From positions 28,780 to 92,779 of the forward strand of contig NZ_OMOJ01000010.1 in the NCBI RefSeq assembly GCF_900302505.1: a DNA stretch of 64,000 bases. Reading direction: 5' to 3'. The notes under the pieces are model-generated. The model did no database searches and was not told where the DNA came from. It was given only the letters and a program-made list of their open reading frames with translations. The DNA is from Pseudoprimorskyibacter insulae (GTDB lineage Bacteria > Pseudomonadota > Alphaproteobacteria > Rhodobacterales > Rhodobacteraceae). Below are positions 28,737 to 45,120 of the stretch, in pieces (the stretch's first letter is position 1; every line of letters begins with the position of its first letter). A program made the position numbers and the translations under genes.

Positions 28737-28756
28737 TCAAGAGGAGGACCTTGGAA

Positions 28757-29617
28757 GTGAGTACGGGGGAGGTGCGAAATTTTCCGGCGCCGGACGGCGC
28801 AGACATGGCTGTCCACGTCTGGCCCGGCGCGGATTCTGGCACCCCGTTGCTTTGCCTCCATTCGCTCTTTTTTGATGGTCGCATGTTCCAACCCGTCGTG
28901 GCGCTGCTGGACCAGATGTTGACCGCCCGCCCGACAGTCTATGCCCCCGATTTTCGAGGGCAGGGTGCATCGTCGATGGGGGATCTGCGTCCTTTGATGC
29001 AGACGCTTGCCAAAGACGTGCTGGCCCTGCTGGACTACGAAAATTTAGAGCAGGTTCATGTTCTGGGCAGCTCGATGGGGGGCTATGTGGCGATGGAACT
29101 GATGCGGCTGGCACCAGAGCGGATGTCGGGTGTCGTTCTGTCGTGTTGCACCGGCGAAGCCGAAGCCGATCCCGCGCGGTTTTTCCAACTTGCCGACAGA
29201 CTGCAACATGAAGGTGCAAAGGCGCTGACAGAGATGCTGTTACAAACGATGTTCGGAGACAGCTTTCTCGCTGCGAACTCGGATCTGCTGCATCTCTGGC
29301 GCAAGCGCTTCAGCGAACTGCCCCCGTCAATTGCCGAGGTCGTTCGCGGTGTATTCGAACATCCCGATTACGGCGGCACGCTTTCTGGTTTTACGAAACC
29401 GATCTTGTCGATTGGCGGCGGCGAAGACCGCGCAAAGAGCCCCGCGAATGCACGCTGGATCGCAGATCGCGCTTCAAATGGCACGTTCGCGGTTATCGAG
29501 AAATCCGGCCATACACCACCTGTTGAGGCCCCGAATGTCTATGTCGACCTCTTTACACCGTTCCTCAGTCAGCTGGGTGCGTGGCGCAATACTTCACTAG
29601 CAAAGGACATGAAATGA
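28757..29617 (+). CDS. alpha/beta hydrolase (island, first gene)
   Basis: A 286-residue cytosolic hydrolase. The nucleophile elbow is GSSMGG near residue 115, the oxyanion region is CLHSLFFDGRMF, the late Asp is probably in GGEDRAKSP, and the catalytic His is in KSGHTPPVEAP. I chose the GTG at 28757 because AGGAGG (28742-28747) ends 9 nt before it; the ATG at 28724 lies inside the operator-like repeat and has no ribosome site. The fold suits C-C bond, ester, lactone or thioester hydrolysis. It leads the island's rightward operon and overlaps the next gene by 4 bp. Confidence 0.85.
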   Translation: MSTGEVRNFPAPDGADMAVHVWPGADSGTPLLCLHSLFFDGRMFQPVVALLDQMLTARPTVYAPDFRGQGASSMGDLRPLMQTLAKDVLALLDYENLEQVHVLGSSMGGYVAMELMRLAPERMSGVVLSCCTGEAEADPARFFQLADRLQHEGAKALTEMLLQTMFGDSFLAANSDLLHLWRKRFSELPPSIAEVVRGVFEHPDYGGTLSGFTKPILSIGGGEDRAKSPANARWIADRASNGTFAVIEKSGHTPPVEAPNVYVDLFTPFLSQLGAWRNTSLAKDMK

Positions 29618-30048
29618 GTGGAAGCACTGCCAATGCTGAACCCCGCGGCGAATACATCGTTGCCGACGCGGGTCCGATTGCCGATCTGGACTTCAGCTCT
29701 CGCCAAGATTTTACGCGCCGCGACGGTGCGGTTTTTCTGAACGCCAGCCGTTCGGCCTCGTCTGGTAGTATGGCCTTTCCGGCCCGAACCATCTGTCAGG
29801 AAACGGCGGCCCGCGATATGGAGCCAATCGAGGTTGGTCCCGCAGGTGTTCTTTATTCGCACTCCACTATCCATGTCTCGGCCACCCGCCAGACGCCTTA
29901 CACCATTGGCTACGTAGATTTCCCGAACGGTTTGCGGGTTTTGGCGCAGGTGCGCGGAATTGCGGCCGATGCGGGCTGCGACATCCCGGTGGTTCTGGAT
30001 GCCGATGCCGACGGATGGTTCGTCGTTCCGGCCAAGAAGGAGGTGTAA
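29614..30048 (+). CDS. DUF35 OB-fold protein lacking the zinc-ribbon cysteines
   Basis: 144 residues. The C-terminal half (GVLYSHSTIHVSATRQTPYT, GYVDFPNGLRVLAQVRG) is the OB-fold of DUF35 proteins, which partner thiolase-like enzymes and bind acyl-CoA. The N-terminal zinc ribbon (normally R-C-x-x-C-G, then F-P-P-R-x-x-C-P-x-C) reads RSASSG then FPARTICQET: Ser47 and Ser50 replace the first two Cys, Cys61 remains, and Thr64 replaces the last, so zinc binding is probably lost. It immediately precedes the thiolase gene (1-bp gap), as in steroid side-chain retro-aldolase pairs. Confidence 0.8.
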   Translation: MSGSTANAEPRGEYIVADAGPIADLDFSSRQDFTRRDGAVFLNASRSASSGSMAFPARTICQETAARDMEPIEVGPAGVLYSHSTIHVSATRQTPYTIGYVDFPNGLRVLAQVRGIAADAGCDIPVVLDADADGWFVVPAKKEV

Positions 30049-30049
30049 A

Positions 30050-31195
30050 ATGACCCAAGTTCACATGATCGGTGCGGGCATGATCCCCATGGGCAAGCAC
30101 CGCCAGTCCAGCTATTCCGGTCTCGCAGTCCCTGCCGTTCTGACGGCCCTAAAATCAGCGGGAATTGCGCCAAAGGATGTTCAGTCCGTGGCCTGTGGCC
30201 ACGCCTTTGGCGGGATGTTGACCGCACAACGGATTGTAAAGGAAGTCGGCATCGGCACGGTTCCCATGGTCAATGTCGACAACGCCTGTTCGGGTGGTGC
30301 GACAGCGCTCAGCTTGGGTACACGTGACATTCTTGAAGGGCGGGCAGAAGTCGTCTTGGTCATTGGCGTCGACAAGCTGACCCAGTTCGGCGGCGGCACC
30401 TTGCCCTTAGTTGCTGAGGATCCTGAGGTGCAGCAAGGCATGGTCATGCCGGCCGTTTATGGCATGCGCGCCCGTCGTTTTCTGCACGACCGGAACGAAA
30501 CACCGGCGACGCTTGCGGAGGTCTCCGTCAAGGCCCGTCGGCATGGCAAGGCCAACCCGTTCGCTCAGTTTCGCGAAGATACAACTGTCGAAGCGGTGCT
30601 TGCCTCACGCCCGATCGCGGATCCTTTGACCTTGCTGCAATGCTGCCCGACCGGTGACGGGGCAGCGGCTGTGGTACTTGTCTCTGATGCCTATCGCAAA
30701 AAGCTTGGGGCGGCCGGGGTGCGGATTGCTGCATCGATCTTGCATGCGGGGCAGGCAACATCGGGATTCCGCAATATGCTTCACCCGGACATTTCATATC
30801 ATTCGGCGCATGACGCCTATGAGCAAGCCGGCTTTGGCCCCGAAGATCTGGATCTGGCCGAACTGCACGACGCCTTTACCATCGCGGAGTTGGTCTATTA
30901 CGAGGCCCTTGGCTTCTGCCCTGAAGGCGAGGCTGGCATTTTCTTGAAATCGGGCCGCTCGACCTACGGTGGTGATTTGGTCGTCAACCCTTCGGGCGGG
31001 CTGCTGGCCAAAGGGCATCCGGTTGGTTGCTCTGGGGTTGCCCAGGCGGTCGAGGTATTCTGGCACCTGACCGGACAGGCCGGGGCACGCCAAGTGCCCG
31101 ATGCCAAGCGCGCGTTGACCCACGTGACCGGCGGCGGCATCGCCGGAATGGATCACGGAGCCTGCACCGTTCATCTCTTTGAAGCTTCGGCATGA
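30050..31195 (+). CDS. SCP2/SCPx-type thiolase
   Basis: A 381-residue thiolase-superfamily enzyme. The nucleophilic Cys80 sits in VNVDNACSGGATAL; the HDAF motif (LAELHDAFTIAEL) replaces the N-E-A-F of classical thiolases, as usual in SCP2-type members; the GHPVGCSG motif lies near residue 325. It should cleave a beta-ketoacyl-CoA or, with the DUF35 partner, a beta-hydroxyacyl-CoA in a retro-aldol step. Translation is probably coupled to the DUF35 gene. Confidence 0.88.
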   Translation: MTQVHMIGAGMIPMGKHRQSSYSGLAVPAVLTALKSAGIAPKDVQSVACGHAFGGMLTAQRIVKEVGIGTVPMVNVDNACSGGATALSLGTRDILEGRAEVVLVIGVDKLTQFGGGTLPLVAEDPEVQQGMVMPAVYGMRARRFLHDRNETPATLAEVSVKARRHGKANPFAQFREDTTVEAVLASRPIADPLTLLQCCPTGDGAAAVVLVSDAYRKKLGAAGVRIAASILHAGQATSGFRNMLHPDISYHSAHDAYEQAGFGPEDLDLAELHDAFTIAELVYYEALGFCPEGEAGIFLKSGRSTYGGDLVVNPSGGLLAKGHPVGCSGVAQAVEVFWHLTGQAGARQVPDAKRALTHVTGGGIAGMDHGACTVHLFEASA

Positions 31196-31216
31196 CGACC
31201 GAGATCGTGACAAAAA

Positions 31217-32473
31217 ATGACACATCTATCGGACATGGCCTTGCTTAATTCGCAGCAGATTTCAAAGCCGTTGGCAGGCTATCGGGTTTTAGACCTGACT
31301 ACCTTCCTTTCCGGCCCATATTGCACGCAAATCCTCGGTGATCTGGGGGCCGACGTCGTCAAGGTCGAGGCGCCTGACGGCGACAGCAGTCGAAGCATTC
31401 CACCACATTTCGTGGACGGCGACTCGGCCTATTATCTGGCCAACAACCGAAACAAACGGTCTATTTCGGTCGATCTGAAAGAGGCCAAGGGTATCGAACT
31501 GGTGCGCCGCCTAATTGCTGAAGTCGACGTTGTGGTCGAAAACTATCGCCCAGGCGTCGCCTCGAGATTGGGGTTGGATCCACAACGGATGACAACAGAT
31601 CATTCGCGGCTGATCTGGGCCTCGATCAGCGGGTTCGGGCAGCATAGCCCGTGGAAAGACCGCCCAGCTTACGACATGATCGTGCAGGCCCTGTCCGGCG
31701 TGATGAGTTTGACAGGCGAGCGCAACAGCACCAAGTCTGTACGACTGGGCATTCCCGCCGGGGATACCGTGGCGGGGCTTTATGCCGCGATCGCAGTGAA
31801 TGCCGCTCTTGCCGACCGGGAGCGCACTGGCGCAGGCCGGCTGATTGACGTGTCGATGCTGGATTGCCAACTTTCCATGCTGTCGTATCAAAGCGCTTAT
31901 ACTCTGATAGCGGACGTCACGCCCGGCCATCAGGGCGCAAGCCACGACTCGATCCCGACATATAGATCGTTTCTGGCGGGTGATGGGCGCGAGGTGGTGA
32001 TCACCGCCAATACCGCACGGATGTGGCGGGGGCTTTGCAGTGCAATTGGTCAGCCCGCGCTGGCCAATGACCCCCGGTTCGACGATGGCGGCAAGAGACT
32101 CGAGAACCGTCAGGCACTTTGGGACATCCTTGAGCCCGCTTTTCTTGCGCGAAGTGCGGCTGAATGGGTTGACGTGTTGAACGAAAACGACGTCCCCTGC
32201 GCGTTGATTAAGTTGGTCCCCGAAGCATTGGCCGACGCGCGCGAGTCTGGGCGGGACATGGTCGTGTCGATGCGCAATGCATCCGGTAAGGAAATTGAAG
32301 TTGTCGGCAATCCGGTCCACTTCACCGGCGGAACGCGCGAGGCACCGAATTATCCCCCCAGCCTCGGTGGCGATGCCAGCAGCGTACTCGGGGAATGGTT
32401 GCAGATGGGCGATGAAGAGGTCGCCAGCCTAGCCAAGGCGGGCGTGTTGCGAACGGCGGCACAATCGCAATGA
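31217..32473 (+). CDS. family III CoA-transferase (CaiB/BaiF/Frc type)
   Basis: A 418-residue cytosolic enzyme that moves CoA from a donor thioester to a free acid through an aspartyl-CoA anhydride. LSGPYCTQILGDLGADVVKV is the N-terminal family signature; the catalytic Asp is in PAYDMIVQALSGVMSLTG near residue 150; NNRNKRSISVDLK is also diagnostic. The first ATG (31217) has a poor ribosome site and the ATG at 31235 is an alternative. It probably activates the island's acid substrate so the thiolase branch can act. Confidence 0.9.
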   Translation: MTHLSDMALLNSQQISKPLAGYRVLDLTTFLSGPYCTQILGDLGADVVKVEAPDGDSSRSIPPHFVDGDSAYYLANNRNKRSISVDLKEAKGIELVRRLIAEVDVVVENYRPGVASRLGLDPQRMTTDHSRLIWASISGFGQHSPWKDRPAYDMIVQALSGVMSLTGERNSTKSVRLGIPAGDTVAGLYAAIAVNAALADRERTGAGRLIDVSMLDCQLSMLSYQSAYTLIADVTPGHQGASHDSIPTYRSFLAGDGREVVITANTARMWRGLCSAIGQPALANDPRFDDGGKRLENRQALWDILEPAFLARSAAEWVDVLNENDVPCALIKLVPEALADARESGRDMVVSMRNASGKEIEVVGNPVHFTGGTREAPNYPPSLGGDASSVLGEWLQMGDEEVASLAKAGVLRTAAQSQ

Positions 32474-33288
32474 AACAACCGGTCACCATACCGGGCGCTC
32501 TGAACCTGCGCCGACTGTCGCCAACCCCCGGTGGGGCACCTGTTTTGGCCTTGCATTCGCTTGGGCTAGACGGCGACAGCTTTGCCGGAATGGCTCAGGC
32601 TCTGGCCCCGACTTTCGAGGTTTGGGCCTTTGATCAACGGGGACATGGCGCACAACGTAATCGGCCCGCAACAGGCTTTGACGATCTGGTTGCGGATGCC
32701 GAGTTGGTCATTGACCATCTGTCTGCATCGCAACCGGTTCATCTGATCGGGCATTCTATGGGCGGCGCAGTTGCCGCGACGGCGGCCGCGCGCCGCGGCG
32801 GGCGCGCTCGATCGGTGATGACAATCGCCACACCAGCGCGCGGAATGCCCGCGTTTCTGGATCGCGCGACAGCGCAAAAAAGCGGTCTGGAGGTCTGCAT
32901 AGGCACGACCATGTCGAGGTGGTTTGAACAACCCGATCGGGAGGTGCCTGCGGTGCAAATCGCCCGCGCGGCCTTGGCGCGGATGACCCCTGCGGGGTTT
33001 GACGCATCATGGCATGCCTTGGCCGAGTTTCCGGGCTTTGCCGAAATCGCGGCGTCTCTGCCTGCGCTGTGCGCTTTGGCGTATTGCGATGATCGGTCAA
33101 CACCGCCTGCCGTGCTTGACGATATCGCGGATTCCGTCGCCACATCAGGCGGACATGCGCAACGCGTCGATATCACAGACGCCGGGCACATGGGGTTGTT
33201 AGAAAAACCTGGGCCAACCGCCGAAGCCTTTGCCATGTTCGTCGCGAACCTGCCGGTGGCCACAGCAAGCAAGGATGATGCAAGTTGA
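32470..33288 (+). CDS. alpha/beta hydrolase (island, second)
   Basis: A 272-residue cytosolic hydrolase with LALHSLGLDGDSF (oxyanion), nucleophile elbow GHSMGG near residue 97, a probable acid in YCDDRSTPP, and catalytic His in DAGHMGLLEKPG. It overlaps the CoA-transferase stop by 4 bp and is overlapped in turn by the SDR start. It differs clearly from the first hydrolase and so presumably acts on another intermediate. Confidence 0.85.
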   Translation: MKQPVTIPGALNLRRLSPTPGGAPVLALHSLGLDGDSFAGMAQALAPTFEVWAFDQRGHGAQRNRPATGFDDLVADAELVIDHLSASQPVHLIGHSMGGAVAATAAARRGGRARSVMTIATPARGMPAFLDRATAQKSGLEVCIGTTMSRWFEQPDREVPAVQIARAALARMTPAGFDASWHALAEFPGFAEIAASLPALCALAYCDDRSTPPAVLDDIADSVATSGGHAQRVDITDAGHMGLLEKPGPTAEAFAMFVANLPVATASKDDAS

Positions 33289-34061
33289 TAGACACTGAAT
33301 TTTTTCCCGGCCTATCTGGCCGCGTCGCGCTTGTGACCGGAGCCGCCTCAGGGGTTGGTCAGGCCGTGACCGAAAGCCTTTTGCGTTATGGCGTGATCGT
33401 GGCCGGCCTCGACATAACCGCCGAGGGCATTCCGCAGGGGGCAAAGGTGATCTTGGCCGATGTGCGGGATCAGGCTGCGGTGACAAAGGCGATTGATGAT
33501 TTCGCGGCATCGCACGGATGCCTTGATGTCCTCGTAAACAATGCTGGCGTAAGTTACACCGGCAAGGTCGAGGACGGAGACGAGGCCGATTGGTCCCGTG
33601 TATTCGACATCAATGTTTTCGGGCAACTGCGCGTGATGCGGGCGGCCCTGCCTTGGTTGCGCAAATCTGGGTCCGCTTCGGTGATCGTCATGTCCTCTTG
33701 CACGGCCATCAATGGCATACCCGAGCGGGTGGTCTATTCCGCGACCAAAGGTGCTGTGCAATCGATGTCGATCGCAATGGCCACCGATTTGGTGGCAGAA
33801 GGAATTCGGGTCAATACGATCAGTCCGGGAACAGTTGACACGCCCTTCATGCGTGAGCTGGCCTCGCGCACACCGGATCCCGCCGCAACGCGCGCGGCGC
33901 ATGAGGCCCGCCAACCCACCGGCAAAATGGTGGATCCAAACGAAATCGGGCTCGCGGTGGCCTATCTGGCCAGCACTATTTCCAAATCTGTTACGGGAAC
34001 GACCTTGGTCGTGGACGGTGGAATGGGCGCGCTTCGGCTGGCCGCCAAAGCCAAACAGTAA
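33285..34061 (+). CDS. short-chain dehydrogenase/reductase (island, first)
   Basis: A 258-residue NAD(P)-dependent oxidoreductase. The cofactor motif is VTGAASGVGQAV, NNAG motif LVNNAGVSY, catalytic YSATK, and a C-terminal GTTLVVDGGMGAL. The start is a TTG that overlaps the hydrolase stop, with AAGGA upstream. An acid at the end of beta-2 (AGLDI) suggests NAD preference. It probably oxidises a secondary alcohol of a pathway intermediate. Confidence 0.88.
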   Translation: MIDTEFFPGLSGRVALVTGAASGVGQAVTESLLRYGVIVAGLDITAEGIPQGAKVILADVRDQAAVTKAIDDFAASHGCLDVLVNNAGVSYTGKVEDGDEADWSRVFDINVFGQLRVMRAALPWLRKSGSASVIVMSSCTAINGIPERVVYSATKGAVQSMSIAMATDLVAEGIRVNTISPGTVDTPFMRELASRTPDPAATRAAHEARQPTGKMVDPNEIGLAVAYLASTISKSVTGTTLVVDGGMGALRLAAKAKQ

Positions 34062-34077
34062 GATCAATTCGGGAGCT

Positions 34078-34839
34078 ATGAACGTGAGATTTCAAGACAA
34101 AACGGTGTTGGTGACAGGCGGAGCGCAGGGGATCGGCCGGGCCTATTGTTTGGCATTTGCCAATGAAGGCGCAAAGGTTGTTGTGGCCGATTTCAACGAC
34201 GTGAAAGCGGAAGCAGTCGCGGAAGAAATTCGGGCGGCGGGCGGCAAGGCCACGGCGGTCAAAGTCGATGTTTCTGACAAAGGGTCGGTTCTGGCCATGA
34301 TTGCCAAAATCGAAGGCACTTTCGGCGCAGTCGATGTTCTGGTGAACAACGCCGCGATTTTCTCGACGCTGAAGATGAAACCCTTTGAGGAAATTGACGC
34401 TGACGAATGGGACAAGGTCCAGGCTGTCAACGCACGCGGGGTCTTCTTCTGCTGTCAGGCCGTCGCACCGGGAATGCGGGCACGCAAAAGCGGCAAGATC
34501 ATAAATATTTCATCCTCGGTCGTTGTGACCGGGCGCGCCAATTACGCGCATTACGTCGCCTCGAAAGGGGCCGTCGTCGCGCTGACACGTGCGTTGGCCA
34601 CCGAGTTGGGGCCGGATGGGATCAACGTCAATGCGATCAGCCCCCACGGCATTGTGACCGAAGTTCCGCGCGATACCATTCGTCCCGAACAATGGGACGA
34701 GATCATCGCGGCGCAGGCGCTCAAGCGTAAAGGATCGGTTCAAGACATGATCGGAACCACGATGTTTCTTGCCTCGAGCGAGAGCGACTACATCACCGGC
34801 CAATGCATGAACGTGGACGCCGGTCTGCGGTTCAACTGA
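34078..34839 (+). CDS. short-chain dehydrogenase/reductase (island, second)
   Basis: A 254-residue SDR with VTGGAQGIGRAY, LVNNAAIFS, the Ser-Tyr-Lys set (ISSSVVVTG, HYVASKGAV) and C-terminal ITGQCMNVDAGLRF. VVADFN after beta-2 favours NAD. The start is the ATG at 34078 behind GGGAG. It lies 16 bp after the other SDR gene. Confidence 0.88.
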   Translation: MNVRFQDKTVLVTGGAQGIGRAYCLAFANEGAKVVVADFNDVKAEAVAEEIRAAGGKATAVKVDVSDKGSVLAMIAKIEGTFGAVDVLVNNAAIFSTLKMKPFEEIDADEWDKVQAVNARGVFFCCQAVAPGMRARKSGKIINISSSVVVTGRANYAHYVASKGAVVALTRALATELGPDGINVNAISPHGIVTEVPRDTIRPEQWDEIIAAQALKRKGSVQDMIGTTMFLASSESDYITGQCMNVDAGLRFN

Positions 34840-34851
34840 GGAGACACCGAT

Positions 34852-35382
34852 TTGGAACAGTTTACAGCAACCGTTCAACGTGCAGGCGACAGAAGACACA
34901 AGATCGCTGTCATCGACGGACCCAATATGTCCAGTCTCGGTCGGCGGTCGAAAAAGGTCTATGGCAAAATCGCCTCGCTCGATGATCTCAAGCAGTGGGT
35001 CACCGATTTCGGAGCCGGACTTGGCGTCGATGTCGAAACTTTTTCATCTAACTACCAAGGCGCGATACTGGAATTCATTCACGAAAGCGCCGAACGCGTA
35101 GATGCCTATATCATCAATCCGGCTGGTCTTACGACTGTCGGTGAAGGTGTGCGCCACGCGCTTGAAGATACCGGACTGCCCGTGATGGAGGTCCATTTCT
35201 CCAATATTTCCGCAAATGCCGGGGCCGCGCGCGGTCTGGGTGGCGGAGCGATCAATTCGAGTTTCACCCATACGGCCACAGGCCTGTCGATGGGGATGCG
35301 TCACTACAGCTATGCGGCTGCTTTGACGGCACTAACGCTTGGGCTCGATGATCAAGACTTTTTAGGCGCAGAAGCGGACTAA
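34852..35382 (+). CDS. divergent type II 3-dehydroquinate dehydratase-like protein
   Basis: 176 residues. Compared with type II dehydroquinase it keeps Asn25 (IDGPN), Arg32 and the catalytic Tyr37 (LGRRSKKVYG), Asn89 (IINPAG), and the Glu113/His115 pair (MEVHFSN). The S-N-H-E-G motif has become SNYQG, and the His of I-N-P-x-x-x-T-H-T is Thr95. The lid-side H-A-R-E-x-F-R stretch is replaced by a Gly/Ala-rich insertion (about residues 121-135). A non-shikimate substrate is likely, probably a related ring or enolisable hydroxyketone. TTG start behind GAGGAGA. Last catabolic gene before the TRAP genes. Confidence 0.75.
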   Translation: MEQFTATVQRAGDRRHKIAVIDGPNMSSLGRRSKKVYGKIASLDDLKQWVTDFGAGLGVDVETFSSNYQGAILEFIHESAERVDAYIINPAGLTTVGEGVRHALEDTGLPVMEVHFSNISANAGAARGLGGGAINSSFTHTATGLSMGMRHYSYAAALTALTLGLDDQDFLGAEAD

Positions 35383-35386
35383 AATC

Positions 35387-35407
35387 GGCGGCGCGACTGG
35401 CGCCGTC
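35387..35407 (+). promoter_or_regulatory. stem-loop between the dehydroquinase-like gene and dctP
   Basis: 8-bp stem (GGCGGCGC / GCGCCGTC, one G-U pair) around a 5-nt loop, no T-run. It may set the ratio of catabolic to transport transcript. Confidence 0.4.
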
Positions 35408-35436
35408 AAATTCCAAAGTAAATGGGAGGACACCAT

Positions 35437-36411
35437 ATGAAACTTCGAATGACCGCAACTATTGCGATGGCTCTTTGGGGCGCGATGTCCAGCATCGCGT
35501 CCGCAGAGTTCGACAACGTGACGCTGCAAATGGCGCACATCTATAACCCCGGCGAGCACTGGGGTGATGTCGCGGATGATTTCAAAGCCCGCGTCGAAGA
35601 GGCATCGGGCGGCACTGTCAAAATCAATATTTCGCCCAGCGGGACCACAGGTGACTGGCCCCAGTCCATTGAAGGCCTGAAGATCGGTACCAACGACATC
35701 GTTCTGCAAAGTGTTGGCGCGCTGGATCGCTATGGCTCGATCGCTGGCATCGAGGCGTTCCCCTATCTGCTGCGTGACGTCGGCCATTTCGAAGCCTTCT
35801 ATTACGGCCCCGTTGGCGCAGAAGTTTTCGATGCAATCGAAGAGCAAACCGGCTTTCACCTGATCGGCGCATCTTACCGTGGTGCGCGGCATCTGTCCGC
35901 CAACCGCGAAGCTGGGACACTGGAACAGCTTGCCGGTCTGAAACTGCGCGTTCCGCCGCTGAAAATGTACCGTGAAACATGGGAAAATCTTGGCGCAAGC
36001 CCGGTTCCCATGGGCTTTGCCGAGGTCTTTACCTCGCTGCAGCACGGCCTGATCGATGGTCAGGAAAACCCGCTTGAAGTGATCCAGAACGTCAGCCTCT
36101 ACGAGGTACAAGATTACGTGATGGAAACGGGTCACGTGATGGGCGCAATGACTTTCATCTTCAACGGCGCACGTTTTGACCAACTGTCGGCAGACACTCA
36201 GACCCTGCTGAAAGAGGCGGGTGAAGCCGCAATGAAAGCCGGAACCGAGCGCATGATCGCGACCGAAGCCGACTTGAAAGCCAACCTCCAGGAAAAAGGT
36301 ATGACCTTTATCGAAGTCGACAAGAAGGCCTTTGCAGCCAAGCTTGACGGCTATGCCAAAGAGTTCCCCGATCTGGAACCGTGGGTCGAGAAGATCCAGG
36401 CAATCGAATAA
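35437..36411 (+). CDS. TRAP transporter solute-binding protein (DctP family)
   Basis: A 324-residue periplasmic binding protein. The signal peptide is MKLRMTATIAMALWGAMSS, cleaved after IASA; GGGAGGA precedes the ATG. The DctP core has AGLKLRVPPLKMYRETWENL, with the conserved Arg that binds the ligand carboxylate, and FAEVFTSLQHGLIDGQENP. The ligand is therefore probably an organic acid. It feeds the DctQM membrane proteins encoded next. Confidence 0.9.
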   Translation: MKLRMTATIAMALWGAMSSIASAEFDNVTLQMAHIYNPGEHWGDVADDFKARVEEASGGTVKINISPSGTTGDWPQSIEGLKIGTNDIVLQSVGALDRYGSIAGIEAFPYLLRDVGHFEAFYYGPVGAEVFDAIEEQTGFHLIGASYRGARHLSANREAGTLEQLAGLKLRVPPLKMYRETWENLGASPVPMGFAEVFTSLQHGLIDGQENPLEVIQNVSLYEVQDYVMETGHVMGAMTFIFNGARFDQLSADTQTLLKEAGEAAMKAGTERMIATEADLKANLQEKGMTFIEVDKKAFAAKLDGYAKEFPDLEPWVEKIQAIE

Positions 36412-36419
36412 TACAAAAT

Positions 36420-36446
36420 GGTGCTCCGGGATTTCCCCGGGGCACC
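36420..36446 (+). promoter_or_regulatory. stem-loop between dctP and dctQ
   Basis: 11-bp stem (GGTGCTCCGGG / CCCGGGGCACC, one G-U pair) with a 5-nt loop and no T-run; positioned to keep binding-protein mRNA in excess. Confidence 0.6.
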
Positions 36447-36479
36447 AGAAACGCTTGCGAAGATTTGCGGAGGGGTGGG

Positions 36480-37004: not shown

Positions 37005-37014
37005 GGAAACACTC

Positions 37015-38286
37015 ATGGATTCCATCGCCATTCTCTTGGGCTCGACATTTGTTCTGATGCTCTTGGCGCTTCCGATTGCCTTTGCGGTCATCGCAGGTTC
37101 AATCATCACACTTCTGTACATTGGCGGCATCAATCTGATGGCCATTCCGCAGAACCTTTTTTCCGGGTTGGATAGTTTTTCACTGCTGGCCATTCCCTTC
37201 TTTGTTCTGGCCGGCAGTTTAATGACCTCCGGAGGGATCACCGAACGGCTGCTGGCGTTGGCCAATGCGTTGCTTGGGCGGTTTCGGGGTGGTCTTGCCA
37301 TGAGCGCGGTCTTGTCCTCGGCCCTGTTCGCAGGGATCTCGGGCTCGGCCGTGGCCGACACATCGGCACTGGGGCGCATCTTGATCCCGTCGATGATCCG
37401 GTCTGGCTATGCACCTAACTTTTCGGCGGGCCTTTTGGCTGCCGCAAATGTCATGGCCCCAATTATCCCGCCGTCGATCCCCTTTATCGTTGTCGCGACT
37501 TTGACCCACCAATCAATTGGCACCCTGTTTCTGGCAGGCGTCATTCCCGGCTTGTTTTATATGGCTGCGATGATTTTCCTTGCCTGGTGGCTCAGCCGAA
37601 AGCGCGGCTATCCGGTGCAGGAACCGGCCAGCGGACGAGAGATCCTGATGGCACTTCGCGACGCGTTTTTTGCGCTTGCTCTGCCAATTTTTGTATTAGT
37701 CGGCATCCGCAGTGGCGTTTTCAATATCACCGAATGTGCTGTTGTGGCGGCACTCTATGCCTTGTTGGTCGGCACGTTCGTCTATCGTCGAATTACGCTG
37801 CGAGTTCTAGTTGATGCCTTTGCTTCGGCGGCGCGGACTACGGCTGTGATCATGATCGTTGTCGCGGCGGCGCGGCTCTTCAGCTGGGTGCTGGCCTATC
37901 TTGGCATTCCAGGTCTGATTTCGGATTTTGCCTTGGAGAATTTCTCGGATCCTCTGATGTTCCTGTTGGCCATGAACCTTTTGCTGCTGGTCGTGGGTAT
38001 GTTCATCGAGACCAATGCAGCAATTGTGATGCTTGTACCGGTGCTCTATCCAATCGCGCTCAAGCTGGGCGTCGATCCCACGCATTTCTCGGTGCTGGTG
38101 GTCGTCAACCTGTGTATCGGCCTTATCACGCCCCCTGCTGGTCTGTGCCTGAACATTGCGACAATTCTTGCCAAGACCGATCTTGAGGATGGCGTCAAAG
38201 GGGTTCTGCCATTTCTGGCTCTGGCCATTGGGATCCTTGCGATCCTGACTTTCTTCCCGGGACTGTTCTTGTGGTTCGTGGCCTAA
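37015..38286 (+). CDS. TRAP transporter large permease subunit (DctM family)
   Basis: 423 residues with about 12 helices. Diagnostic stretches are IPFFVLAGSLMTSGGITERL, FAGISGSAVADTSALGRIL, ANVMAPIIPPSIPFIVVATL and GLITPPAGLCLNIATILAKT. Imports the acid captured by DctP using the sodium gradient. Last gene of the rightward operon, followed by a strong terminator. Confidence 0.93.
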   Translation: MDSIAILLGSTFVLMLLALPIAFAVIAGSIITLLYIGGINLMAIPQNLFSGLDSFSLLAIPFFVLAGSLMTSGGITERLLALANALLGRFRGGLAMSAVLSSALFAGISGSAVADTSALGRILIPSMIRSGYAPNFSAGLLAAANVMAPIIPPSIPFIVVATLTHQSIGTLFLAGVIPGLFYMAAMIFLAWWLSRKRGYPVQEPASGREILMALRDAFFALALPIFVLVGIRSGVFNITECAVVAALYALLVGTFVYRRITLRVLVDAFASAARTTAVIMIVVAAARLFSWVLAYLGIPGLISDFALENFSDPLMFLLAMNLLLLVVGMFIETNAAIVMLVPVLYPIALKLGVDPTHFSVLVVVNLCIGLITPPAGLCLNIATILAKTDLEDGVKGVLPFLALAIGILAILTFFPGLFLWFVA

Positions 38287-38307
38287 CGGAATGTTGGCCT
38301 TTCCCCT

Positions 38308-38344
38308 CAGAGGCCGCGCTGCGCGGCCTCTGAATGCATTTTGC
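38308..38344 (+). terminator. intrinsic terminator after dctM
   Basis: A perfect 11-bp stem (CAGAGGCCGCG / CGCGGCCTCTG) with a 3-nt loop, followed by AATGCATTTT. It ends the rightward island operon before iclR. Confidence 0.8.
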
Positions 38345-38404
38345 CTCGGACGCAGTAGGTGTTGCGCGGATTGAGAACAGAAAGTTCCCTTTGCCCGGTC
38401 CAAT

Positions 38405-38456
38405 TTGATCTGCCATCGACATCGATCGACTTGATCTGCCATCTACATCGATCGAC
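38405..38456. repeat. tandem 26-bp direct repeat upstream of iclR
   Basis: Two back-to-back copies of a 26-bp unit that begins TTGATCTGCCAT and ends ACATCGATCGAC, with one mismatch (G/T). Each contains the palindrome ATCGAT. It lies between the terminator and the iclR start and may be a regulator-binding region. Confidence 0.8.
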
Positions 38457-38518
38457 GATATTGGACGGAAGAGTAAGTCATTGGTTGCAAACCATTCAAA
38501 GATTGAGGAACATGCCTA

Positions 38519-38537
38519 AAATTCATTCAATGGATTG
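38519..38537. promoter_or_regulatory. operator-like site C in front of iclR
   Basis: On the minus strand it reads CAATCCATTGAATGAATTT. TCCATTGAAT matches the TCCATTGAATA start of site B and resembles site A, about 65-85 bp upstream of the iclR start. It would fit autoregulation. Confidence 0.45.
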
Positions 38538-38602
38538 TCATTCCGGTGTGCAGCCATCTGAATCGCGGTGTGATGAAGTTCGACAGGAAAGTACGGCAGA
38601 TT

Positions 38603-39424
38603 ATGGCCCCAGATACGCGTGAGACCAATCAAGACCGTTCGCAGGCCCCGGTCGGCACAGTAACCCGCACTCTCAGGGTTATTTCGTTGCTGGCGGATCT
38701 GGACGAGCAGTTCACCGTCAAGACCGTTGCAGACGGGTTGAATCTCGCCCCCTCCACGGCGCACCGGCTTTTGAACCAACTGGCCAGCGAAGGGTTTGTC
38801 GTTTCGATTCCGCGCACTCGCAGCTACGAAACTGGCCCCGAATTTTATCGGATTGCCTCGCGGATCTTGGCCAAGGCCACGGCCATCCATCTTGCCGAAC
38901 AGACGATGAAAGAGATCGCTGCGAAATATGATGAGACTGTCGTGTTCGGCCTGCACGATCCCAACCGGCATGCGCTGGTCTTTATCGCGCGTGCCGATGG
39001 CAGCAATGCACTGACCTATCGCATCGAACTGAACAAGCCGTTGTCATTGGTTTGGGGCGCGTCCGGGAAAGCGGCACTTGCCTATGTGTCCGACGACGAG
39101 GTGGCTGCTGCTTTGGAGGCCGAGGGGCGCTCTCCCGCCAGCAACGCCCCGCCGCCGACATTAGTAGAGCTTGCGGCCCAACTGCATGCGGTCCGCGAAA
39201 AAGGATTTGCCATCAGCAAGGGCGAAAAGCTTGCGGGGGCCCGCGGCATTGCGGCGCCGGTTTTCGGCCCGGGGGGTCTGGTAGGGTCTATCTGCCTGAC
39301 CTCTCCGGCATCTCAGCTTGAAGCAAGCGGTGTAGATATCGAATCCATAGGTCAGGACATCGCACAATACTGTGCCCAGCTTTCGCACACCTTAGGCGGC
39401 AACGTGCCGGGCAAGCCGGGATAA
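38603..39424 (+). CDS. IclR-family transcriptional regulator
   Basis: 273 residues from MAPDTRETNQ; upstream in-frame ATG codons at 38573 and 38546 are possible but lack ribosome sites. N-terminal winged HTH: FTVKTVADGLNLAPSTAHRL followed by LLNQLASEGFV. The C-terminal IclR effector domain has FGLHDPNRHALVFIAR, LVWGASGKAALAY and GARGIAAPVFGPGGLVGSIC. It lies between the two converging operons and is the only regulator inside the island, so it is the obvious candidate for binding sites A, B and C. Confidence 0.9.
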   Translation: MAPDTRETNQDRSQAPVGTVTRTLRVISLLADLDEQFTVKTVADGLNLAPSTAHRLLNQLASEGFVVSIPRTRSYETGPEFYRIASRILAKATAIHLAEQTMKEIAAKYDETVVFGLHDPNRHALVFIARADGSNALTYRIELNKPLSLVWGASGKAALAYVSDDEVAAALEAEGRSPASNAPPPTLVELAAQLHAVREKGFAISKGEKLAGARGIAAPVFGPGGLVGSICLTSPASQLEASGVDIESIGQDIAQYCAQLSHTLGGNVPGKPG

Positions 39425-39457
39425 TTCCGGCACCCGGCACTTTGCGCGTTCAGGCAA

Positions 39458-40288
39458 TCAGGCGTAACAACCCTCGGTCGATTTGCGCAACGTGGCGAAC
39501 TGGTCAAGGTCGTGACCAAACCAAACCTGCGCGTTATGGCGGGTTTCCAGTTCTCGAATGCGGCGAACGGTGCGCATTGCGCCAACTGAGTCTTTGACCA
39601 CACCCGGCATTTGAACAGGATCACGGTAGTTCGCAGCTGTATAAACAGCATCAGACGTCAAGATCACGTTTCCTGTCTCAGGCAGTTCGACCCGCAAGCC
39701 AAGCATGCCATCGGCATGGCCCGGTCCGAAATTCAAGATCTCGACGCCATCGGCCAGCATCAGGTCGCCCTCATCAGGTTCGACCAACCGCCAGTTCAGA
39801 TCCGTATGGGTCCAGCGCTCGATGTCTTTGCGAACATAGGGCGTGTTGTCCTGTCGCATTCCATAGGCACTGAGCGCGGCAGCAAACTCATTCCTGTGAA
39901 CGATCAGCTGTGACTTCTTGAAATACTCAACACATCCGGCGTGATCGTTATGCAGATGTGACAGCACCGCGTAGCGAATATCATCCGGGCCAATCCCCAT
40001 TTGTTCTAGCCGGTTCGGTAGCTGGCATTCTTCGCCGCCGGAATAGGGGCACAATTCTTGCAAGAACGGGTCCCAACGCCCTTGCTCGCCCATGGCATTC
40101 GGATTGCAGCCGACATCGAACAAAATATGCCCATCGGTGTGGTGGATACAGTAGCTCGATACTGGGACATCAATCAGTTTGTGCTGCGCATGGGGATTGC
40201 TGTGCGTTGCCAATGAGCTGTTCCCAACCATCAGGTTTTGATCCAGCGTCAATCGTCCCAAGTCCAGGACATCCATTGTCGTATGCAT
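39458..40288 (-). CDS. metallo-beta-lactamase-fold hydrolase, N-acyl-homoserine-lactonase-like
   Basis: 276 residues. The metal site SHLHNDHAGCVEYF (H-x-H-x-D-H) lies near residue 110, a further His in GPGHADGMLGL and an Asp in LTSDAVY; VSSYCIHHTDGHILFDVGCN is the typical N-terminal half of AttM/AiiA-like lactonases. It is the last gene of the ABC importer operon, 31 bp after livF. In this context it more likely opens a lactone formed in, or imported for, the island's pathway than quenches quorum signals. Confidence 0.85.
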   Translation of the reverse strand: MHTTMDVLDLGRLTLDQNLMVGNSSLATHSNPHAQHKLIDVPVSSYCIHHTDGHILFDVGCNPNAMGEQGRWDPFLQELCPYSGGEECQLPNRLEQMGIGPDDIRYAVLSHLHNDHAGCVEYFKKSQLIVHRNEFAAALSAYGMRQDNTPYVRKDIERWTHTDLNWRLVEPDEGDLMLADGVEILNFGPGHADGMLGLRVELPETGNVILTSDAVYTAANYRDPVQMPGVVKDSVGAMRTVRRIRELETRHNAQVWFGHDLDQFATLRKSTEGCYA

Positions 40289-40319
40289 CGGTCTTTCCTT
40301 TCGGTTCTACTCTTTTGGG

Positions 40320-41027
40320 TTACATCCCAAGATATGCAACACGGACTTCATCGCTGCTCGCCAGTTCCTTTGTCGATCCGCTGACGGTAATTCGGCCCGA
40401 TTCCAGCAGGTATCCCCGATCCGCGACCCCCAGTGCCATGACAGCGTTTTGTTCGACGATCAGCGTCGTCAAGCTGCGGTCCTGGCGCAGTGCGTGCACG
40501 ACATCAGCCAGTTCATCGACCATCCGGGGGGAAAGCCCGGATGAAGGTTCGTCCAGGAGCAAAAGCTTGGGTCGCGAGATCAGGGCGCGGCCAAAGGCCA
40601 GCATCTTCTGTTCTCCACCGCTCAGCGATCCAGCCTTTTGGCTGGCGCGCTTGCGCAGAATTGGAAAATAAGTGTGGATACGATCAATCATATCGCTGTG
40701 GTCCATACCGTTTTTATGACGATAGGTTCCAAGCAAAAGATTTTCATGCACCGACATGTCGGGGAACAAGTGCGAGCGCTGTGCCACCTGTGCCACCCCG
40801 AAACGTGAAATCACATGCGGCGGTTTTCCGGTCAGATCGACACCGTCGACACTGAAAGTTCCGCCGATGGTGGGGTTGATGCCTGACAGAGCCATCATAA
40901 GCGAGGTTTTCCCAGCTCCGTTCGGCCCGATGAGAGTGACAACCTCGTGCTCTGCGATCTCAAGTGAAATGTCATGCAGCACACGTACCTTGCCATAGGC
41001 CAGATCAAGGTTCGAAATATCAAGCAT
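40320..41027 (-). CDS. branched-chain-amino-acid-type ABC importer ATPase (LivF-like)
   Basis: A 235-residue ATPase with Walker A GPNGAGKTSLMMALSG, signature LSGGEQKMLAFGRAL and Walker B LLLDEPSSGLSP. It overlaps livG by 8 bp. The family also serves aromatic and alicyclic acids, urea and amides, so the ligand is open. Confidence 0.92.
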   Translation of the reverse strand: MLDISNLDLAYGKVRVLHDISLEIAEHEVVTLIGPNGAGKTSLMMALSGINPTIGGTFSVDGVDLTGKPPHVISRFGVAQVAQRSHLFPDMSVHENLLLGTYRHKNGMDHSDMIDRIHTYFPILRKRASQKAGSLSGGEQKMLAFGRALISRPKLLLLDEPSSGLSPRMVDELADVVHALRQDRSLTTLIVEQNAVMALGVADRGYLLESGRITVSGSTKELASSDEVRVAYLGM

Positions 41028-41832
41028 GCGCGTGCTCCTCAGGGTGGTCCTGTTTCACGTCACGGCCCAGATAGATTTCCCTGACCTTCGGATTTGCAAC
41101 GATCTCTTCCGGGCTGCCTTCGGCGTATTTGCGTCCGTAATCCAGAACGCAGATGCGCGCGCACAGTTTCATAACAAAGCGTGTGTTGTGTTCGATCAGG
41201 ATGATTGTGATGCCCTGCTGGTTAAGCGTCTGGATCAGCACGCCTAGGTCTGCTGTCTCCGAGGGGCTCAGGCCCGCGGCCGGTTCGTCCAGCAACAACA
41301 TCGTCGGGCGGGTTGCGATTGCCATAGCGATTTCTAGCCGGCGCTGCTGCACAAAGCTGAGCGCATCGACAGACGCTTGCTCGGTCCCTGCAAGGCCAAC
41401 CGTCGCAAGGATGCGGCGTGCCTCGTCGCGCAACTGGTCCAGTTCCTCGCGATAGCCTTTAGTATAGAATACTGACGCCAAAAGGCCCTTTTTGACATGC
41501 AGATGCGCGCCAACAAGCATGGTGTCGATAACGGTCAGCCCGGCGAACAGATTGGTCAATTGAAACGTCCGCGCCAAACCGCGCTTCGCCATATCAAATG
41601 GCTTGAGTTTGGTGACATCCTCGCCCTTGAAAAAGACGCGACCCGATGTCGGCGTCAACGCGCCACTCAGAAGGTTGAAAGATGTACTTTTGCCGGCACC
41701 GTTCGGGCCGATCAGACCAAATATCTCGCCTTTGCGCACCTCGATATCCAGCGCGTCTACGGCCTTAAGGCCGCCGAACTGGATGCCCAGTCCTTGCGTC
41801 TTCAAAAGCGTTTCGGAAGGTGTCATGTCCAT
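41020..41832 (-). CDS. branched-chain-amino-acid-type ABC importer ATPase (LivG-like)
   Basis: 270 residues from the ATG at 41832 (an in-frame TTG at 41838 and ATG at 41826 are alternatives). Walker A is GPNGAGKSTSFNLLSG, signature LSFVQQRRLEIAMAIA (degenerate, as usual in LivG), Walker B LLLDEPAAGLSP, and the C-terminal DYGRKYAEGSPEEIV. Works with LivF under the LivHM channel. Confidence 0.92.
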   Translation of the reverse strand: MDMTPSETLLKTQGLGIQFGGLKAVDALDIEVRKGEIFGLIGPNGAGKSTSFNLLSGALTPTSGRVFFKGEDVTKLKPFDMAKRGLARTFQLTNLFAGLTVIDTMLVGAHLHVKKGLLASVFYTKGYREELDQLRDEARRILATVGLAGTEQASVDALSFVQQRRLEIAMAIATRPTMLLLDEPAAGLSPSETADLGVLIQTLNQQGITIILIEHNTRFVMKLCARICVLDYGRKYAEGSPEEIVANPKVREIYLGRDVKQDHPEEHAHA

Positions 41833-41842
41833 TGCCAATCGC

Positions 41843-42874
41843 CTATTTGGTCTTGGTGGTAAGTGAGTTTGGTGTCAGCGCGCCTGCATCCTTGCCTTTG
41901 GAACGCATCCACGATGTCAATGAGTCTTGTAGCGACGGGATAATCCCCTTAGGCAGGACTAGGATTGTCACCAGCAGCAACGCCCCAAAGATGATGGTCC
42001 GCCATTCCTGAGCAAACGAAAGAAACTCGGGGACAAAGACGAAGATCCATGCACCAACAACAGGACCGATAAGCGAGCGCGAGCCGCCGACGACCACCAT
42101 GACCAAAAGCCAGAACATATAGTACAGACCCAGGCTTTGCGGACCGACTTGGCCGCTGAAATGTGCAAAGATCACCCCAGCCACACCGGCAAGCGCGCTG
42201 GCAAGCGTGAATGCAGCAACGTAATGCCAATAAGGGTTGATCCCAAGCGCGCTGGATTGTTGTTCATTGTCCCGGATCGCAGCAACCGCGCGGCCGTTGC
42301 GGGACCGGCGCCACGCATGCACGACATAGGCGCTCAGGCAGAGAATAGCCAATGCGACGTAATACGACCCCAGCTCGCTATAAAGCGGGACCCAGCCGTT
42401 GGTGGAACTGTAATAGCTGACAGGAGGCACCATCGGAATTCCACTGATCCCGCCAGATAGCTCGTACCAGCTGGTCATGACGACCTGAATAACTTGACCA
42501 ACGCCAAGCGTAATAATCGCCAGATACAGCCCGCGCGCCCGTTTCAGCGCAATGAGCGCCACGATAAAACCCAGCAACGTTGAAAACAGGATGCCGAACA
42601 CCATCGACGGGCCAACAGGCATATCCAATTTTACGCTAAGGATCGCGGTCACATAGGCGCTCATCCCGAATAGGGCCTGATGGCCAAAGGAAAACTGACC
42701 CATGTCGCCGATGATGATATCCAGGCTGATCGCCAAAGTGCCGAAAATTAGCGTCAAAACAAGTAGGTAACGCCAATATGGGTCGTTCATCGCAAGCGGA
42801 AGCACAGATGCGACAGTGATCACCGCAAGCCAGACCAGAGGGCGTTTTGATTGAGAAGTGAGGATCTTATGCAT
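41843..42874 (-). CDS. branched-chain-amino-acid-type ABC importer permease (LivM-like)
   Basis: 343 residues with about ten helices. Typical stretches are YLLVLTLIFGTLAISLDIII, GHQALFGMSAYVTAIL, GRAVAAIRDNEQQSSALGIN and WLLVMVVVGGSRSLIGPVVG. Overlaps livH by 8 bp. Confidence 0.92.
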   Translation of the reverse strand: MHKILTSQSKRPLVWLAVITVASVLPLAMNDPYWRYLLVLTLIFGTLAISLDIIIGDMGQFSFGHQALFGMSAYVTAILSVKLDMPVGPSMVFGILFSTLLGFIVALIALKRARGLYLAIITLGVGQVIQVVMTSWYELSGGISGIPMVPPVSYYSSTNGWVPLYSELGSYYVALAILCLSAYVVHAWRRSRNGRAVAAIRDNEQQSSALGINPYWHYVAAFTLASALAGVAGVIFAHFSGQVGPQSLGLYYMFWLLVMVVVGGSRSLIGPVVGAWIFVFVPEFLSFAQEWRTIIFGALLLVTILVLPKGIIPSLQDSLTSWMRSKGKDAGALTPNSLTTKTK

Positions 42875-43724
42875 TCTTGAAAATTCCTTGCGGCCGGATA
42901 AGACACATCAGAACAAGCAGGCTGAAAGCAAAGGCGCTTGTATAGGCGGTCGAGACGTATTGGCCGAACAATGCTTCGGATACACCCAACCCAAGCCCAA
43001 CCAAAACCGCACCGCGGGCGCTGCCCATCCCGGCAACGATGATGACCGCGAACCCTTTGAGCAGGATATTCTCGCCCATTGTCGGGAAGGCTGACCAGAT
43101 TGGCCCAATAATGCCGCCGGCAATAGCGGCAAGCGCGCCCGACACGGCAATGGTGATCGAGTAAATCGCGCGGACATTGATCCCGATCAGTGCCGCACCG
43201 GTCTCGTCTTGCGCGACCGCGCGCATGATTCTTCCCGTAGCCGTCTTTTCGATAAAGAACCAAAGCGCGACCAATGCCACGATACCAATCAGCGACAATA
43301 CCAACGCAGTCTGGGAAATCGTGACGCCAGCAAATGTGTACTGGCCCGAAAACGGCGTCGGAATAATCCTGGTGTCGGTGTTCCAGACAATGGTCGCAAG
43401 GTTTACCATAATCACACTGATCGCCATGCTCGAGATCATGACGTTCAGTGGTTGGGTATTGAGCAGTGGCTGGACCGCGATGCGGTCAAATATGACCGAG
43501 AACAAGGCGACTATTGCCGCCGCGAATATCAGGGCCAGAAAGAACGGCACATGCAGCACCGCCGTCATCGTGAATATCAGCATGGCGCCCATCATGAAGA
43601 ATTCGCCATGCGCCATGTTGATGACCCGCATCATCCCGAAAATGAGCGTCAGCCCCATCGCAAAAATGCTGTAGCCCATACCAACGACAAGGCCGTTCAC
43701 GACCTGCTGCCCGAAAGTCCACAT
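42867..43724 (-). CDS. branched-chain-amino-acid-type ABC importer permease (LivH-like)
   Basis: 285 residues. Diagnostic stretches are GMGYSIFAMGLTLIFGMMRV, INMAHGEFFMMGAM, MRAVAQDETGAALIGINVRA and KGFAVIIVAGMGSARGAVLV. It is separated from the binding-protein gene by 112 bp containing a stem-loop. Confidence 0.92.
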   Translation of the reverse strand: MWTFGQQVVNGLVVGMGYSIFAMGLTLIFGMMRVINMAHGEFFMMGAMLIFTMTAVLHVPFFLALIFAAAIVALFSVIFDRIAVQPLLNTQPLNVMISSMAISVIMVNLATIVWNTDTRIIPTPFSGQYTFAGVTISQTALVLSLIGIVALVALWFFIEKTATGRIMRAVAQDETGAALIGINVRAIYSITIAVSGALAAIAGGIIGPIWSAFPTMGENILLKGFAVIIVAGMGSARGAVLVGLGLGVSEALFGQYVSTAYTSAFAFSLLVLMCLIRPQGIFKNA

Positions 43725-43778
43725 TCTCGTTTTCCTGATCAGATTTCGTCTACACCCATGCCTTTAAAAGAACTGGTG

Positions 43779-43806
43779 CCGGGGAGGCAGATGTCCGCCT
43801 CTCCGG
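43779..43806 (-). promoter_or_regulatory. stem-loop between livK-like and livH-like genes
   Basis: 10-bp stem (CCGGGGAGGC / GCCTCTCCGG on the plus strand, one G-U pair) with an 8-nt loop and no T-run in the transcribed direction. Confidence 0.55.
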
Positions 43807-43836
43807 TCCATTATCGGCTGGGTGCCAAGGCGGGCT

Positions 43837-45066
43837 TCAGAGTTTCGCCCAATCGTCCGGCAGTTCTGCAAGCCAATCGTTCGGCGTCATATCCAGATAC
43901 TTATCGATCTCGATCTTGCCGCCGCGGACTTGTACCAGCGGTGTACGGGGCAGAATGCCCAGGCCGCGATCGCTCAAGACCACTGCGTCGCCGGTCGGGG
44001 CGACCCACTCCAGCTCGCGCATTGCTTTCGAAATCGCCTCAAGCCCATCGGGGCGTCCGTTGCCCTCGGTGCCGGCAAGATCCATCGCACGCATCAGAAA
44101 TACGCTCTGCGCGTAGATGACTTCGGCAGACCGCCAAGGCTGCGCGCCTTCGCCATATTTCGCCGTCCAAAGATCAAGGAAAGCAGCATTGGCAGGAACC
44201 GAAGCGTCTGGCGCCCAGTCCATTTTAGAATAGACGCCTTCGGTCAGTTCGGTTGGCATGTTGTCGACGTCGTCTTGAGTGAGGTCTGCCGTAACACTGA
44301 CTTCACCCGAGTAGTTCAGATCGTTAAGCTTTTTCAGCATCGACGCTGCAACCTGCGCCGACCATTCCTCGGCCCAGATAAAGTCGGGCGACTGACCGAC
44401 AGCCTTCGTAAGTTCGGTATCGAGCTGCGTCGAACCCCAGGGATAATATATGATGTCCAGCAGCTTGACCGGCGAGTCTGCGCGTTCCCAACGTTCGCGG
44501 ACCAGCTTTTCAACATCCCGGTTGTAGTCGATGTCGACCATCAACATGACAACGCTTTCGATGCCTTTTTCTTCCAGCCAGCGCAGCTGCGGCATGGTAC
44601 GGGCACGTGCGTTACACGACAGGCCCAAAGTGCCCGGATAGCCCTGGTCATACAGCCACATGCCGCCCTGATCAGGGGCGAACGGCAGGTTATAGCGTTG
44701 TGCAACTGACAAGCCTGCCGGTGCTGTATCCGCCCAATGCGGGCCAACCAGCGCATGAACGCCCTCGCGCTGTGCCAGTTTCAACGCCGCAGAACGGGCC
44801 GTCTCGCCGGTTGTGCCCTGCGAGGCGAAAACCATTTCGACCGGACGACCGCCCAGAATGCCGCCCGTTTCGTTGACATGCTGGATCGCGGTTTCCAGGC
44901 CCTTCGTATATTCTCGGCCGTCCTTGAGGGCTTGCCCCTCGGTCGGGGCGATCATCCCGATCTTGATGGCGTCACCGGCGGCAAAGGCCGCGCGTGACAA
45001 ATACGGCAAGGCAAGTGTCGAAGTTGCCAAAGTCGCAAACTTACGGCGGGTGATTTGGGTATTCAT
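43837..45066 (-). CDS. branched-chain-amino-acid-type ABC importer binding protein (LivK-like, Tat signal)
   Basis: 409 residues. The N-terminus TRRKFATLATSTLALPYLSR carries a twin-Arg motif with an A-F-A-A-G cleavage site, so Tat export is likely. The Peripla_BP_6 fold shows IKIGMIAPTEGQALKDGREY, HVNETGGILGGRPVEMVF and ALVGPHWADTAPAGLSVAQR. GGAGGAG precedes the ATG. It is the first gene of the leftward island operon, behind operator-like site B. Confidence 0.9.
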   Translation of the reverse strand: MNTQITRRKFATLATSTLALPYLSRAAFAAGDAIKIGMIAPTEGQALKDGREYTKGLETAIQHVNETGGILGGRPVEMVFASQGTTGETARSAALKLAQREGVHALVGPHWADTAPAGLSVAQRYNLPFAPDQGGMWLYDQGYPGTLGLSCNARARTMPQLRWLEEKGIESVVMLMVDIDYNRDVEKLVRERWERADSPVKLLDIIYYPWGSTQLDTELTKAVGQSPDFIWAEEWSAQVAASMLKKLNDLNYSGEVSVTADLTQDDVDNMPTELTEGVYSKMDWAPDASVPANAAFLDLWTAKYGEGAQPWRSAEVIYAQSVFLMRAMDLAGTEGNGRPDGLEAISKAMRELEWVAPTGDAVVLSDRGLGILPRTPLVQVRGGKIEIDKYLDMTPNDWLAELPDDWAKL

Positions 45067-45080
45067 TAGGTCTCCTCCCC

Positions 45081-45120
45081 CTGAATTCCACTCAGTAGAA
45101 TAATATTCTATTCAATGGAG
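45081..45120. promoter_or_regulatory. operator-like site B (putative IclR site)
   Basis: On the minus strand it reads CTCCATTGAATAGAATATTA and continues TTCTACTGAGTGGAATT. It aligns with site A over 40 bases with about 28 matches and no gaps. It lies 15-54 bp upstream of the livK-like ATG. Confidence 0.55.

Follow-up and report, generated by a model that had tools for sequence, protein, structure and literature searches.

The window analysed here, a stretch of 64,000 nucleotides from Pseudoprimorskyibacter insulae (contig NZ_OMOJ01000010.1), carries between positions 28724 and 45066 a mixture of hydrolase, coenzyme A (CoA)-dependent, dehydrogenase and transporter genes, which raises the question of whether they encode a single degradation pathway and for what kind of substrate. 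An earlier interpretation made from the DNA letters alone, hereafter the sequence-only reading, had grouped all of them into one candidate pathway. By comparison of gene order between genomes, positions 28724-39424 are one unit, consisting of eight genes conserved together (abh1 to dhq), the genes of a TRAP transporter and an iclR regulator gene. We predict, at a probability of roughly one half, that this unit serves the uptake and degradation of an already oxygenated hydroxy acid. Every gene named by the sequence-only reading was located within 28724-45066, in the families stated there, as listed below (the 16 fuller loci are defined in the following paragraphs).

28724-29617, + strand: abh1, alpha/beta hydrolase, PcaD-like but far under the PcaD cut-off (TIGR02427, 118.4 of 255.85 bits), kept in 13 of 16 fuller loci
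29614-30048, + strand: ob, DUF35/OB-fold subunit (39.8 bits, cut-off 27.1), with one of four zinc-ribbon cysteines remaining
30050-31195, + strand: thi, SCP2-type thiolase, closest solved relative benzoylsuccinyl-CoA thiolase
31217-32473, + strand: caiB, family III CoA-transferase (387.4 bits, cut-off 23.3)
32470-33288, + strand: abh2, second alpha/beta hydrolase, present in 15 of 16 fuller loci
33285-34061, + strand: sdr1, short-chain dehydrogenase (SDR), YxxxK present
34078-34839, + strand: sdr2, SDR, YxxxK present, start taken from the sequence
34852-35382, + strand: dhq, type II dehydroquinase-like protein of a separate clade (DHquinase_II, PF01220, 103.3 bits, cut-off 23.3)
35422-36411, + strand: dctP, TRAP solute-binding protein, over the Pfam cut-off
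36480-37004, + strand: dctQ, TRAP small membrane subunit, over the Pfam cut-off
37015-38286, + strand: dctM, TRAP large membrane subunit, over the Pfam cut-off
38546-39424, + strand: iclR, regulator
39458-45066, - strand: a metallo-beta-lactamase (MBL)-fold gene and livF, livG, livM, livH and livK, a five-gene LIV importer, convergent with the operon

The eight genes from abh1 to dhq occupy 28724-35382 on the + strand, with neighbouring genes either overlapping by 4 bases or lying no more than 21 bases apart. The complete TRAP set of dctP, dctQ and dctM comes after dhq, and a 259-base gap separates dctM from iclR. No Rfam family reached its gathering threshold in 26000-47500, and no tRNA lies within the window.

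When 84,980 species genomes were scanned with an alignment built from dhq relatives, 42 loci were found, a lower bound, as the scan depends on exact short peptides. The combination of dehydroquinase-like, DUF35 and thiolase proteins, which the sequence-only reading had singled out for a neighbourhood search, does recur: ob, thi, caiB, sdr1 and dhq stand together in 16 of the 42 loci, referred to as the fuller loci. Eight loci carry all eight genes in the order of the window and on one strand, the regulator aside: Granulosicoccus (L004), Achromobacter (L006), a Rhodobacteraceae bin (L007), a Granulosicoccaceae bin (L012), three Alcaligenes loci (L011, L013, L022) and, in the Actinomycetota, Leucobacter (L015). 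An iclR relative sits between thi and caiB in these eight and in 13 of the 16 fuller loci overall, whereas the iclR of the window follows dctM. Eight further loci hold most of the set in rearranged or shortened form. Azospirillum (L025) keeps the order of the window with abh2 missing; Aeromicrobium (L017, L018) and Nesterenkonia (L024) have all eight genes in a different order; abh1 and sdr2 lie on the opposite strand in L010 and are missing from L008, L016 and L020. These two genes thus co-occur, both present in 13 and both absent in three of the 16 loci, which are related and do not represent independent events. Four loci at contig ends show part of the set (L005, L009, L014, L044), and another only the TRAP genes with a dhq fragment (L043). 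Literature searches aimed at the gene set, covering a partial listing of open-licence papers, returned no description of the operon, in agreement with the earlier suggestion of a catabolic-type gene set outside described pathways.

In the remaining loci the dhq relatives are more distant and mostly stand in a different gene setting; ob, thi, caiB and abh2 are still nearby in L027 and L033. Shorter clusters combine dhq with a GntR regulator, another alpha/beta hydrolase and a major facilitator superfamily (MFS) transporter, as in Pseudomonas (L021, L023), and the thiolase of the operon is not nearby; this suggests that the dhq step may be the older core of the system. A CMD-family gene was seen in some shorter dhq clusters (L028 and L032 scanned). 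Two more distant dehydroquinase-like genes stand side by side in L035, L038, L039, L049 and L050; on the plasmids L049 and L050, these pairs are accompanied by xanthine-dehydrogenase-type genes and a succinate-semialdehyde dehydrogenase gene.

The genes of the unit have also diverged together. Pairwise identities of nine genes follow those of dhq (Mantel r 0.57-0.75, 14 to 17 sequences each), and for every one of the nine none of 2000 permutations reached as high a value. By identity, the closest relative is the gammaproteobacterial bin L012 for six of the nine genes, tied for abh1, and a different one for caiB (L007), abh2 (L010) and sdr2 (Alcaligenes). On the dhq tree, Alcaligenes is nearest to the window by path. 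Within the window's family, a close dhq gene is present in just 3 of 394 genomes, the window's own counted, and within the family of Alcaligenes in 6 of 268, one of which is the Bordetella of L029, without the operon. Directly upstream of the operon lies a transposase-family open reading frame (ORF; DDE_Tnp_1, 27709-28287). This patchy distribution, the kinship across classes and the upstream transposase ORF point to spread by horizontal transfer.

From the chemistry of the families, a route can be proposed in which the TRAP transporter would take up the acid; in the longer version of the operon only, abh1 would then hydrolyse an ester or lactone and sdr2 would carry out an oxidation. Sdr1 would oxidise a hydroxyl to a ketone, and the dehydroquinase-like enzyme could remove water by beta-elimination from the resulting beta-hydroxyketone acid. 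Abh2 would hydrolytically open a lactone or C-C bond to give a beta-keto acid, to which the family III transferase would transfer CoA, before thiolysis by the OB-thiolase complex into two acyl-CoAs. Every step and the step order are drawn from family chemistry; what the comparison itself establishes is which genes are present, how they are arranged, that they diverged together and that catalytic residues are kept. The scanned ORFs of the region contained no oxygenase domain, so that an already oxygenated substrate is likely; the alicyclic substrate hinted at by the sequence-only reading is possible. An analogous known logic, which we count as support, is found in Klebsiella michiganensis, where a deoxyribonate cluster described in the available excerpt of its account comprises a CoA-synthetase, dehydrogenase, thiolase, CoA-transferase, glycerate kinase and MFS transporters (PMC6365646). 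Both systems have a dehydrogenase, a CoA-transferase and a thiolase, which in Klebsiella serve a sugar acid; the Klebsiella cluster differs by its CoA-synthetase, glycerate kinase and MFS transporters, and that excerpt names no dehydroquinase-like member (PMC6365646).

The CoA end of this route supports the CoA activation and thiolase-type cleavage proposed earlier. The nearest solved structure to thi is benzoylsuccinyl-CoA thiolase (E 6.8e-84), with which it has the C-terminal HVTGGG...HxACT stretch in common. The nucleophilic cysteine (NACS) and an HD[AS]F motif are kept in 21 of 22 thiolase rows, the exception being the distant L026. The window's motif is HDAF, not the YDHF or YDCY of related aldolases. 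The related steroid aldolases use YDHF or YDCY, and CtSal has glycine in place of the nucleophilic cysteine (PMC12329534). Because the cysteine and HD[AS]F are retained, thiolysis appears more likely than retro-aldol cleavage; of the two cleavage types offered by the sequence-only reading, the first is thus favoured. None of the 13 Pseudomonadota rows, the window included, retains the four-cysteine zinc ribbon in its OB subunit, and all seven Actinomycetota rows do; L020 is gapped there and L025 keeps two of the four cysteines. The nearest solved structure to caiB is a succinate-hydroxymethylglutarate CoA-transferase, and caiB scores below the equivalog cut-offs.

Two described lower pathways resemble this module. 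BbsAB of the lower benzylsuccinate pathway is its nearest solved structure and has the same OB-fold and thiolase pair and HVTGGG...HxACT stretch, but the module stays below the BbsA and BbsB equivalog cut-offs (50.4 of 250 and 322 of 750 bits) and has lost the zinc ribbon, and genes for an acyl-CoA dehydrogenase or a hydratase are missing from the region. The lower beta-ketoadipate pathway (PcaD, CoA-transferase, thiolase) follows the same hydrolase, CoA-transferase and thiolase logic, but abh1 and abh2 score 118.4 and 100.5 of the 255.85 bits set for the PcaD equivalog, and the transferase is of family III and the thiolase of SCP2 type. In four plasmid loci, OB-thiolase pairs (thiolase identity 49-61%) are accompanied by genes for a CoA-transferase and an enoyl-CoA hydratase, and in three of the four also by SDR genes; their incomplete gene table lists no dehydroquinase. 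On the basis of these plasmid loci, the lower CoA module is a recurring kind of cassette.

These plasmid arrangements, in which an enoyl-CoA hydratase accompanies the OB-thiolase and CoA-transferase genes, lend some weight to a benzylsuccinate-like or alicyclic-acid beta-oxidation in which dhq replaces the hydratase, acting on a free acid or a CoA ester. The kinship of the thiolase with the Bbs enzyme fits such a route, as does the lack of an enoyl-CoA hydratase-family gene in the operon. Acyl-CoA dehydrogenase is, however, lacking too, neither family being found among the 19 main ORFs scanned in 28724-47072, and L027 contains both dhq and an enoyl-CoA hydratase. Moreover, no AroQ-fold enzyme is known to act on CoA esters. 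We consider this explanation unlikely.

The assignment of dhq itself bears on the next alternative. It matches five AroQ NCBIfam models and falls below the cut-off of each (TIGR01088, 99.1 of 169.85 bits, and four subfamily models), and two other genes of the same genome match DHquinase_II better (187.8 and 161.4 bits). In total, 370 proteins match dhq at E <=1e-20. Across an alignment of 24 rows including the window, N25, R32, Y37, N89 and H115 are invariant, which we take to be the AroQ catalytic set. T95 and H102, in contrast, occupy the places of a histidine and an aspartate in the genome's own AroQ (L001), which are presumably contacts to the ring hydroxyls. Following the HF[SA]N motif, dhq has an inserted stretch; with this insertion, R127, which is invariant but one residue off in the alignment, may or may not supply the third contact. 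In the predicted model, residues 118-144 have a predicted local distance difference test score (pLDDT) below 50, making the loop unreliable. A tree of 43 rows separates the IDGPNM proteins from the three AroQ-like rows at 100/100, a value that lies on long branches of the kind the tree program warns of. The 18 operon-labelled rows need two changes on the tree and do not form one exact clade; together with L005 and L009, which are short contigs with a partial operon, they make a set of 20 at 94/95, just below the program's mark. Dhq thus resembles AroQ and QuiB in its PF01220 family and five core residues, and differs from them in its clade, its insertion, the two replaced residues and its scores. 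These features suggest that dhq would perform the same elimination chemistry on a different substrate.

A quinate- or shikimate-type route with dhq as a true 3-dehydroquinate dehydratase would account for the DHquinase_II match and the retained core residues, and the SDRs could oxidise a ring alcohol. The sub-threshold AroQ scores, the separate clade, T95 and H102, and the two better DHquinase_II genes of the genome all argue against it. Such a route also needs no thiolase or CoA-transferase. Among the scanned ORFs of the region, in which SDRs are present, neither quinate dehydrogenase nor dehydroshikimate dehydratase was recognised, the search having covered this region only. This route is more doubtful still.

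The importer and putative lactonase on the opposite strand had been counted as pathway parts by the sequence-only reading, an assignment that the comparison does not uphold. The LIV set occurs in none of the 16 fuller loci, and an MBL gene in only one, L015, where a 31% identical copy lies upstream of abh1; the two are therefore probably neighbours and not pathway members. The MBL protein scores 356.8 of the 475 bits of the AhlS-type acyl-homoserine lactonase equivalog, and shares about 50% identity with plasmid-borne genes that carry the annotation aiiB (acyl-homoserine lactonases) among the matches listed (10 of 50 records). A pathway spanning the whole region is the least probable of the explanations considered: the adjacency of the MBL-LIV set to the operon, LIV genes beside the OB-thiolase genes on two of the four plasmid loci (with an MBL-fold gene also in Salipiger, L085), the L015 copy, MBL-fold genes near dhq in L028 and LIV-type genes near the distant paired dhq relatives of L050 speak for it, and are outweighed by the convergent orientation, the lack of the LIV set in the fuller loci, the likeness to aiiB lactonases and a close MBL gene in the window's own genome only, out of 394 family genomes.

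Several observations weigh against the prediction of hydroxy acid uptake and degradation by the 28724-39424 unit, which is built on sequence comparison and predicted functions. The lack of abh2 in L025 means that the fifth step, lactone or C-C bond opening, is not universal in the proposed form, and the shorter clusters have dhq without CoA genes nearby. Transporters vary between loci: of the 16 fuller loci, 13 have a TRAP solute-binding gene, six of them with a DctP 56-70% identical to that of the window and seven with a different kind (26-28%), and L020 has an MFS transporter after dhq. From these two DctP kinds and the MFS transporter, it follows that the substrate may differ among hosts. 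The predicted DctP model is too poor (pLDDT 65.0) to suggest a ligand, and its structural matches are closely tied TRAP proteins for varied ligands.

Accessory genes were likewise considered as pointers to the substrate and set aside. An apiosidase-like gene after the TRAP genes in L016 (and in L008, by sequence clustering only) and an aconitase-family gene in L027 do not recur widely. Where paired or distant dhq relatives lie on plasmids (best identities 43-47%), they are accompanied by xanthine-dehydrogenase-type or FAD oxidoreductase genes, which did not point to a substrate. Theoretical schemes starting from an acyclic sugar acid or a cyclic 1,3-diketone were among the substrate approaches set aside. 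Cluster u19 (L010, L016) has no Pfam match and, judged by eye, resembles the shadow of a gene on the other strand.

Further out in the window, a ParB_N-domain protein is encoded past livK (45855-47072, - strand), neighboured by an RpiR-type regulator and a Gfo/Idh oxidoreductase gene. A sugar-type ABC importer occupies 20648-25651, with two permeases, a solute-binding protein and an ATPase with a MalK-type OB domain.

As a whole, the conserved operon offers a delimited set of genes for a direct search for the substrate, and its carriers are sequenced and named, among them Azospirillum agricola, which lacks abh2, Oceaniglobus trochenteri, which lacks abh1 and sdr2, and Aeromicrobium camelliae. 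We tentatively put forward, as a possibility, that the IDGPNM clade is a new catabolic lyase, which would remove or add water on 2-hydroxy-4-oxo acids made by the neighbouring SDR from sugar-acid-like compounds, and would thereby give a widespread, mobile and phosphate-free route from polyhydroxy acids to acyl-CoA. The system would gain in interest should a new reaction be demonstrated for this dehydroquinase clade. In bacteria of at least two phyla, proteins annotated as dehydroquinases of aromatic biosynthesis may be degradative enzymes that act on another substrate.

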